Of a stretch of 64,000 nucleotides of DNA, positions 32,084 through 35,476 are shown one piece after another; positions within the stretch are counted from its first letter, which is position 1; every line of letters starts with the position of its first letter. Below the pieces are notes generated by a model that searched no databases, was not told the origin of the DNA, and was given only the letters and a program-made list of their open reading frames with translations. The position numbers and the translations under genes were made by a program. This DNA is from Candidatus Oscillibacter excrementavium (GTDB lineage Bacteria; Bacillota; Clostridia; Oscillospirales; Oscillospiraceae), in the NCBI GenBank assembly GCA_019118505.1, contig DWYU01000024.1:1-64000 (forward strand), written 5' to 3'.

Positions 32084-32533
32084 ATGAAAACCAGAGCCAA
32101 CAACGAGGTCACGCTGGCCTTTCCCAGCCGCAGCAGCAACGAGGGGTTCGCCCGGGCAGCGGTGTCCTGCTTCGCCGCCCAGATGGACCCCACCCTCAAT
32201 GAGCTGGAGGACATCAAGACCGCCGTCAGCGAGGCGGTGACCAACGCCATCGTCCACGCCTACCCGGACTCCATCGGCCAGGTGGTGGTGAAGGTCCGCA
32301 TCTGCCCGGACCAGGTGCTGGAGGTGACGGTGCGGGACCACGGCCGGGGCATCCCGGACATCGAGAAAGCCCGCCAGCCCATGTTCACCACCGGCGGAGA
32401 GGAGCGCAGCGGCATGGGCTTCACCATCATGGAGAGTTTTATGGACAAGCTGGTGGTCCGCTCCACGCCGGGCCGGGGCACCACCGTGGTGATGCGCAAG
32501 CGGCTGGTGCCCCGGCTGAAGAGCGGGACATGA
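32084..32533 (+). CDS. spoIIAB: Anti-sigma F factor SpoIIAB
   Basis: GHKL kinase motifs ELEDIKTAVSEAVTNAIVHAYP, DHGRGIPDIEKARQPMFTT, RSGMGFTIMESFMD. Confidence 0.96.
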   Translation: MKTRANNEVTLAFPSRSSNEGFARAAVSCFAAQMDPTLNELEDIKTAVSEAVTNAIVHAYPDSIGQVVVKVRICPDQVLEVTVRDHGRGIPDIEKARQPMFTTGGEERSGMGFTIMESFMDKLVVRSTPGRGTTVVMRKRLVPRLKSGT

Positions 32534-33234
32534 GCGCCACGCTGGAGCTGCTGCGGGCGGCCCAGGAGGGAGACCGGGACGCCTGCGAGCGGGCGGTGAT
32601 CGAGAACAACGGCCTGATCTGGAGCGTGGTGCGGCGGTACTACGGCCGGGGTGTGGACCCGGAGGACCTGTACCAGCTGGGGTGCCTGGGGTTTTTGAAG
32701 GCGGTGCAGGGGTTCGACTTCGACTACGGCACCTGCTTCTCCACCTACGCCGTGCCCAAGATCGCCGGGGAGATTCGCCGCTTTCTCCGGGATGACGGCG
32801 CGGTGAAAGTGGGCCGCACCATGCGGGAGCAAGCACAGTCCCTTTACACCATTCGGGAGCGGCTGCGGCAGGAACTGGGCCGGGAGCCGGTGCTCTCCGA
32901 GCTCTCCGCGGCCTCCGGCCTGACGCCGGAGGAGATCGCCCAGGTGGAGATCGCCACGGACACGCCGGAGTCCCTTCAGAAGGAGACCGCCGACGGCCTC
33001 ACCCTGGAGGGGATGCTGGGCACCGACGCCCCGGAGGAGGGCATGGTGGAGCGGATTGCCCTGCGGGAGTCCATTGACCAGCTGCCGGAGAAGGAGCGGA
33101 TGACCATTCTCCTCCGGTACTTCAAGGGGCTGACCCAGGAGCAGACCGCCCGGATCCTGGGGGTGTCCCAGGTGCAGGTATCCCGGCTGGAGCGCCGGGG
33201 CCTGAAACGGCTGCGGGAGTCCCTCTCGATTTGA
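32530..33234 (+). CDS. sigF: RNA polymerase sporulation sigma factor SigF
   Basis: DPEDLYQLGCLGFLKAVQGFDFDYGTCFSTYAVPKIAGEIRRFLRDDGAVKV; operonic with spoIIAA-AB. Confidence 0.97.
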   Translation: MSATLELLRAAQEGDRDACERAVIENNGLIWSVVRRYYGRGVDPEDLYQLGCLGFLKAVQGFDFDYGTCFSTYAVPKIAGEIRRFLRDDGAVKVGRTMREQAQSLYTIRERLRQELGREPVLSELSAASGLTPEEIAQVEIATDTPESLQKETADGLTLEGMLGTDAPEEGMVERIALRESIDQLPEKERMTILLRYFKGLTQEQTARILGVSQVQVSRLERRGLKRLRESLSI

Positions 33235-35259: not shown

Positions 35260-35388
35260 TCACCGGAGGGCGGTCCGCCGCCGGGTGTGATGCCGGGCCG
35301 GGCGCTCGATGGCGTCGATGACCCGGAAGAGCTGGGAGGTCAGAAAGACCACGCCCACCAGAATAAAAAAGAAAGTCCAGCCACTCAT
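35260..35388 (-). CDS. Tiny single-TM protein (42 aa), first gene of a SOS-type operon
   Basis: MSGWTFFFILVGVVFLTSQLFRVIDAIERPARHHTRRRTALR; RBS aaggagggtatttcc; stop is 1 nt before the radical SAM ATG. Confidence 0.75.
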   Translation of the reverse strand: MSGWTFFFILVGVVFLTSQLFRVIDAIERPARHHTRRRTALR

Positions 35389-35405
35389 GGAAATACCCTC
35401 CTTAT

Positions 35406-35419
35406 CGAACACCTGTTCG
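35406..35419 (-). promoter_or_regulatory. LexA/SOS box (Gram-positive type)
   Basis: Perfect palindrome CGAACACCTGTTCG just downstream of the -10. Confidence 0.85.
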
Positions 35420-35425
35420 ATAATT

Positions 35426-35454
35426 ATTGTAGCGCGAATACATGTGCCTGTCAA
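35426..35454 (-). promoter_or_regulatory. Sigma-A type promoter on minus strand
   Basis: TTGACA - 17 nt - TACAAT read on the minus strand. Confidence 0.8.
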
Positions 35455-35462
35455 GCGAAAAT

Positions 35463-35476
35463 CGAACAAAAGTACG
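35463..35476 (-). promoter_or_regulatory. Second, degenerate SOS-like box
   Basis: CGAACAAAAGTACG, one mismatch in the right half-site, upstream of the -35. Confidence 0.45.

Follow-up and report, generated by a model that had tools for sequence, protein, structure and literature searches.

A putative LexA-controlled operon in Oscillibacter joins a small, conserved membrane protein to a predicted radical-SAM/DUF4130 repair pair

In the 64,000-nucleotide stretch of Candidatus Oscillibacter excrementavium DNA that we analysed (the window), three closely spaced genes on the minus strand very probably form a LexA-repressed SOS operon, with the gene of a 42-aa membrane protein in first place, followed by those of a TIGR03916 radical-SAM (rSAM) protein and its TIGR03915/DUF4130 partner. 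The promoter is flanked and overlapped by two or three tandem boxes, and LexA dimers bound there would hold the operon off until DNA damage led to RecA-triggered LexA cleavage. The operon would then yield the 42-aa membrane protein together with the translationally coupled repair pair, and the membrane peptide, induced by damage, would serve to halt division or growth for a time during DNA repair; we give this full reading, effector role included, a probability of roughly 0.4. While regulation of this kind is known, the peptide may represent a damage checkpoint peptide of a novel type. The locus is real and well conserved, and of more interest than a single promoter match.

The genes and signals follow each other in the order threonine-aldolase-like gene, stem-loop/T-run, promoter, 42-aa ORF, rSAM gene and DUF4130 gene (Table 1). 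One nucleotide separates the small-ORF stop from the rSAM ATG (35258), and the rSAM and DUF4130 genes are 13 nt apart. The original prediction of a promoter followed by a perfect palindrome, of a one-mismatch second box upstream of the -35 and of a stop codon one nucleotide before the rSAM start was confirmed at the same coordinates, and the grouping of the small gene and the repair pair into one operon was supported as well. The promoter matches 11 of 12 consensus positions, with 0.1 such matches expected in shuffles. Between the two visible boxes we found a third, decayed one, GGCACATGTATTCG, which had been overlooked; the 57 bp separating the visible boxes equal 28+29 bp, as in the triple boxes of relatives. 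Boxes with at most one mismatch occur seven times in the window, compared to 3.0 expected, and since such counts are only mildly above chance, the case for LexA boxes is built on comparative data.

Table 1. Features of the candidate operon and its control region (window positions).
Feature	Position	Strand	Remarks
Stem-loop/T-run ending the threonine-aldolase-like gene	about 35552-35524	-	
LexA-type box 1, CGTACTTTTGTTCG on -, CGAACAAAAGTACG on +	35463..35476		1 mismatch; upstream of -35
Sigma-A-type promoter, TTGACA-17-TACAAT	35426..35454	-	hexamers kept in relatives
LexA-type box 2, GGCACATGTATTCG	35435..35448	-	decayed, 3 mismatches; over -35/spacer
LexA-type box 3, CGAACAGGTGTTCG	35406..35419	-	perfect palindrome; about 7 nt 3' of -10, start-site region
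Shine-Dalgarno sequence of small ORF, AAGGAGGG	35396..35403	-	
42-aa single-TM protein	35260..35388 (incl. stop)	-	helix 3-28 and basic tail; undescribed family
TIGR03916 radical-SAM protein, 421 aa	33993..35258	-	CX3CX2C in RCVYDCKYC; C-terminal HhH (weak match)
TIGR03915/DUF4130 (PF13566) partner, 285 aa	33122..33979	-	

With the 42-aa protein as query, homologs were found in most of the 86 genus genomes searched, the named relatives being Oscillibacter and Dysosmobacter. For 63 parsed loci with an rSAM gene immediately downstream, we searched the 110 nt that precede the small ORF for boxes with at most two mismatches to CGAACN4GTTCG. At least one box was present in 62 loci, at least two in 61 and at least three in 31, whereas among 1286 control windows of similar length, taken from these loci as well, only 82 had at least one box, and a single one had two. 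This corroborates the predicted SOS-type promoter, as do its architecture and position: box spacings were 29 bp (54 cases), 28 bp (26) or 27 bp (5), and the first box lies upstream of the -35, the middle one over the -35/spacer and the last on the start-site region. Box 1 is kept in this position in relatives as CGAATTTTTGTTCG or CGTACTTTTGTTCG, the promoter hexamers are conserved, and the middle box, decayed in the window, is intact in most relatives (e.g. AGAACGTTTGTTCG). Both the small ORF and the boxes are, in short, conserved upstream of TIGR03916 homologs within the genus.

The operator GAAC-N4-GTTC/T over the window promoter is that of the Gram-positive LexA SOS regulon, and it is common to the relatives and to lexA promoters. 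In most cases, the lexA genes of the genus have an upstream box GGAACAAATGTTTG or close variants thereof, which matches the C. difficile lexA operator AGGAACAAATGTTTGC, listed as a test site for LexA binding in PMC4234289. LexA repression and damage induction of the operon are very probable. The role of LexA is read from sequence here, and the assembly comes without a lexA gene, so the boxes might conceivably belong to another regulator with a GAAC-N4-GTTC operator; the shared core at the lexA promoters of the genus and the match to the C. difficile operator make this highly improbable, as does the probable cause of the missing gene. A genome search detected lexA in 16 of the 18 genus genomes of good quality and not in the assembly studied here, in which, however, lexA-adjacent DNA of a relative has a 90% match in the first kilobase of contig C52 (C52:119-1046). 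Because this match begins 119 bp from the contig end, lexA has most likely been lost to a gap in the assembly, and we rejected its absence from the organism, the lexA neighborhood ending at a contig edge. The recA gene lies on the same contig (C52:7317-8276). Of the exact boxes at other places in the genome, two look like chance occurrences; one lies within a radA-like frame, the other near the end of a transporter gene. A further box, CGAACAAATGTTTG (C52:4433-4446), about 60 nt before a DUF1385-like gene, may be real; prmC-like, lipoprotein-like and then recA genes follow downstream, and recA may be under SOS control from this distant promoter.

The assignment of the downstream genes to TIGR03916 and TIGR03915 holds, with 649 bits for the rSAM protein (curated cut-off 343.5) and 216.8 bits for its partner (curated cut-off 112.25). 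The CX3CX2C motif is found at residue 66, while the Pfam match to HhH stays below the cut-off of that family. DUF4130 homologs are present at 26 of 26 genus loci and 27 of 29 class loci, and by family annotation the pair would repair or process damaged bases. We also collected 33 TIGR03916 loci outside the family, from elsewhere in the order and class; an exact [AG]AACN4GTT[CT] box is present within 300 nt upstream in 29 of them (0.68 expected from shuffles), and this small ORF in none. Together with a family-level survey, in which an exact box occurs at 37 of 63 loci (one of the 63 from the genus) and a box with one mismatch at many of the rest, this points to SOS-type control of TIGR03916/TIGR03915 as ancestral or recurrent in Clostridia. 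As LexA-type boxes precede TIGR03916 across Clostridia, the putative SOS control of the repair pair extends beyond loci that have the small gene and does not depend on it.

Related operons have been described elsewhere. COG4277 is presumably a radical-SAM/HhH protein of the TIGR03916 type. An SOS-controlled UDG-COG4277 operon is known from Bacteroidetes and is cited also for Verrucomicrobia and Alphaproteobacteria (PMC8565304); the COG1573-COG4277 operon of that study resembles the present one in its presumed TIGR03916-type component, LexA control and base-repair theme, but the Oscillibacter operon has TIGR03915/DUF4130 as partner, a box of Gram-positive type and a membrane peptide in addition. 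DUF4130 has further been presented as a predicted enzyme linked with SplB-like radical-SAM photolyases and uracil-DNA glycosylases in SOS-linked operons (PMC3765255), which likewise combine DUF4130 with an rSAM protein; unlike the present operon, they come with no mention of a small membrane protein in the part of that source that deals with them. A literature search on TIGR03916 returned nothing.

The 42-aa ORF is neither unconserved nor codon-neutral, and its substitution pattern indicates a real, selected protein. Over core codons 2-30, comparison of six near relatives gave pS 0.28 and pN 0.024, a ratio of 0.08; the basic tail is relaxed (0.59), and the median dN/dS of the small ORF is 0.21 (681 pairs). 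The SOS-type copy always stands directly upstream of the repair pair, and seven genus genomes without the rSAM gene, some of them incomplete, have no such copy. A divergent small TM ORF occupies the same place at seven loci from four other genera, with 20-30 bits against the genus profile compared to at most 10.8 for 7000 shuffled sequences. Most of these loci have the same 28/29-bp boxes, whereas a single box near the start of the rSAM gene is usual where the small ORF is missing, suggesting that the tandem-box layout, and with it presumably tight control, travels with the peptide. Tight multi-box repression would fit a product harmful to growth if leaked.

Homologs of 28-39 aa (e.g. MSGWALFFVTVGVAAAVRQLFRLVDIIERG) also stand directly before replication-initiator-like, DnaB-like helicase and ParA-like genes, named from sequence alone, in ICE-like contexts at 14 loci, among them one of two IMG/VR contigs and a copy in the genome studied here (C65:4500-10500). 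Against the SOS-operon profile they reach 23-53 bits, compared to 9.9 for the best of 3600 shuffles; these scores are selected, stemming from a similarity search, and the shared gene context provides support independent of them. No LexA-type box precedes the ICE-type homologs. Heading Rep-DnaB-ParA operons in this way, they indicate that the peptide family is, by its gene contexts, not SOS-only, and that a damage checkpoint need not be its basic job. Their presence hints at a function that DNA repair and the replication of elements have in common; a pause in division, or the attachment of DNA enzymes to the membrane, would be examples. We think it unlikely that the family, of roughly 30-75 aa, holds back the host cell cycle both in the SOS operon and in integrative-element replication; if it did, a chromosome checkpoint and the replication of mobile elements would draw on one peptide family. 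At two of the loci, including the IMG/VR contig, a LexA/cI-like S24 repressor gene lies about 2 kb upstream of the homolog. Roughly 100 nt upstream of the ICE-type homologs (AAAATTATTATA..CACA..GAATGCAAG) are strongly conserved among elements, and a third context is provided by a homolog (MNTWTLMLMILGMITCALQLFRLIDFIEGKNRQ) upstream of an NhaC-like antiporter gene (L105/L241).

The ORF could also be a leader only, whose translation is needed to start rSAM translation and whose peptide has no role of its own. The peptide comes in a long form of 57-75 aa and a short form of 34-43 aa. At the loci read, the small ORF terminates either shortly ahead of the rSAM gene or some 20 nt into it, its stop being one base ahead of the rSAM start or at most about 20 bases past it, and this tight geometry fits the needs of translational coupling. 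Purifying selection on the residues of the core and retention of the same residues before unrelated ICE genes nevertheless leave a pure leader very unlikely.

AlphaFold2 predicts one helix (residues 3-28; block pLDDT up to 98) and a low-confidence tail, and the net charge is +5 at the C-terminal and 0 at the N-terminal side, in agreement with the prediction of a conserved single-TM protein with a basic tail. By the positive-inside rule, a positively charged flank predicts the cytoplasmic side; the tail, with its charge of +5, is hence predicted to be cytoplasmic, and the topology is probably N-out/C-in, with only about 3-5 residues outside. Conservation covers the membrane helix and the adjoining, predicted cytoplasmic QLFRxIDxIER segment, and the invariant residues Q19, F21, D25, I27 and E28 cluster at the predicted cytoplasmic helix end. 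This clustering would suit a membrane anchor or accessory factor, in which QLFRxIDxIER recruits rSAM/DUF4130 in the SOS operon or Rep/DnaB in ICEs, as would its place as first gene of two unrelated operons with DNA processing as common theme and, within the genus, its occurrence only alongside the repair pair. With no obvious partner common to Rep/DnaB and rSAM/DUF4130, and with the repair pair lacking the peptide in most Clostridia, we regard such an anchor as rather unlikely.

Damage-induced division inhibitors offer the closest comparison for the effector reading. SidA, a short TM protein, acts through FtsW/FtsN to block septal synthesis, and DidA is a DNA-damage-induced division inhibitor independent of SOS. 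Like YneA, SosA, ChiZ and SidA, the peptide is a predicted small bitopic membrane protein under putative control of the DNA-damage/LexA type; it differs from these and DidA in having no LysM or extracellular part, in its predicted N-out/C-in topology, in being encoded with a repair pair and in having homologs in ICEs. We know of no sequence similarity to YneA, SosA, ChiZ, SidA or DidA, and Pfam and NCBIfam gave no convincing match. Many bacteria stop division with small SOS-induced membrane proteins (PMC13396833), which favors a damage effector; box-controlled repair pairs without the peptide in Clostridia outside the family count against it. Two points speak against a simple analogy with YneA, to which the original prediction had pointed. 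The YneA TM segment alone does not inhibit division, the extracellular LysM domain being needed (PMC13396833), whereas the peptide, a helix followed by a basic tail, has no LysM match and next to no outside part, which disfavors the YneA/ChiZ mode of TM helix plus extracellular LysM; the ICE homologs without a LexA box do not fit the analogy either. SidA is nearest in kind, and its form, a small TM protein, fits the peptide. A division-inhibitor role, SidA-like at most, is plausible, and we tentatively favor, at somewhat less than even odds, a SidA-like (TM-only) SOS effector in the membrane over a YneA-like one.

The size, single TM helix and LexA-type multi-box operator are equally reminiscent of toxins of the TisB/DinQ sort, SOS-induced peptides that lower the membrane potential and lead to dormancy, and whose leakage triple-box repression would guard against. 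We consider this quite improbable: a Pfam search of 19 members up to E=10 gave neither TisB nor any other convincing match, Rfam gave no match, and hence no antisense RNA family, in 900 bp around the ORF, and the strongly conserved polar juxtamembrane residues would be unusual for a pore peptide. There was no convincing match in NCBIfam either, and neither peptide form matched phage records; the family is undescribed in the libraries searched. Four alignment members match the functionally uncharacterized phage protein family phrog_19190, with a best E of 5.8e-5.

A literature search found nothing joining Oscillibacter, SOS response and LexA, and for this major gut clade a damage checkpoint has apparently not been described so far. 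As a candidate, the locus is concrete and under selection; it belongs to a common gut genus, its promoter is sharply defined, and it has homologs in mobile elements. The widespread SOS-type control in Clostridia makes a repair role of the poorly understood TIGR03916/TIGR03915 pair testable. At its far end, the DUF4130 gene overlaps tail-to-tail by about 110 bp (33122-33234) with a convergent sporulation-type sigma gene (32530-33234). The latter is part of a SpoIIAA-SpoIIAB-sigma-like cluster and adjoins the repair operon in 25 of 26 genus loci, and a longer DUF4130 C-terminus occurs only in a few close relatives (three loci).
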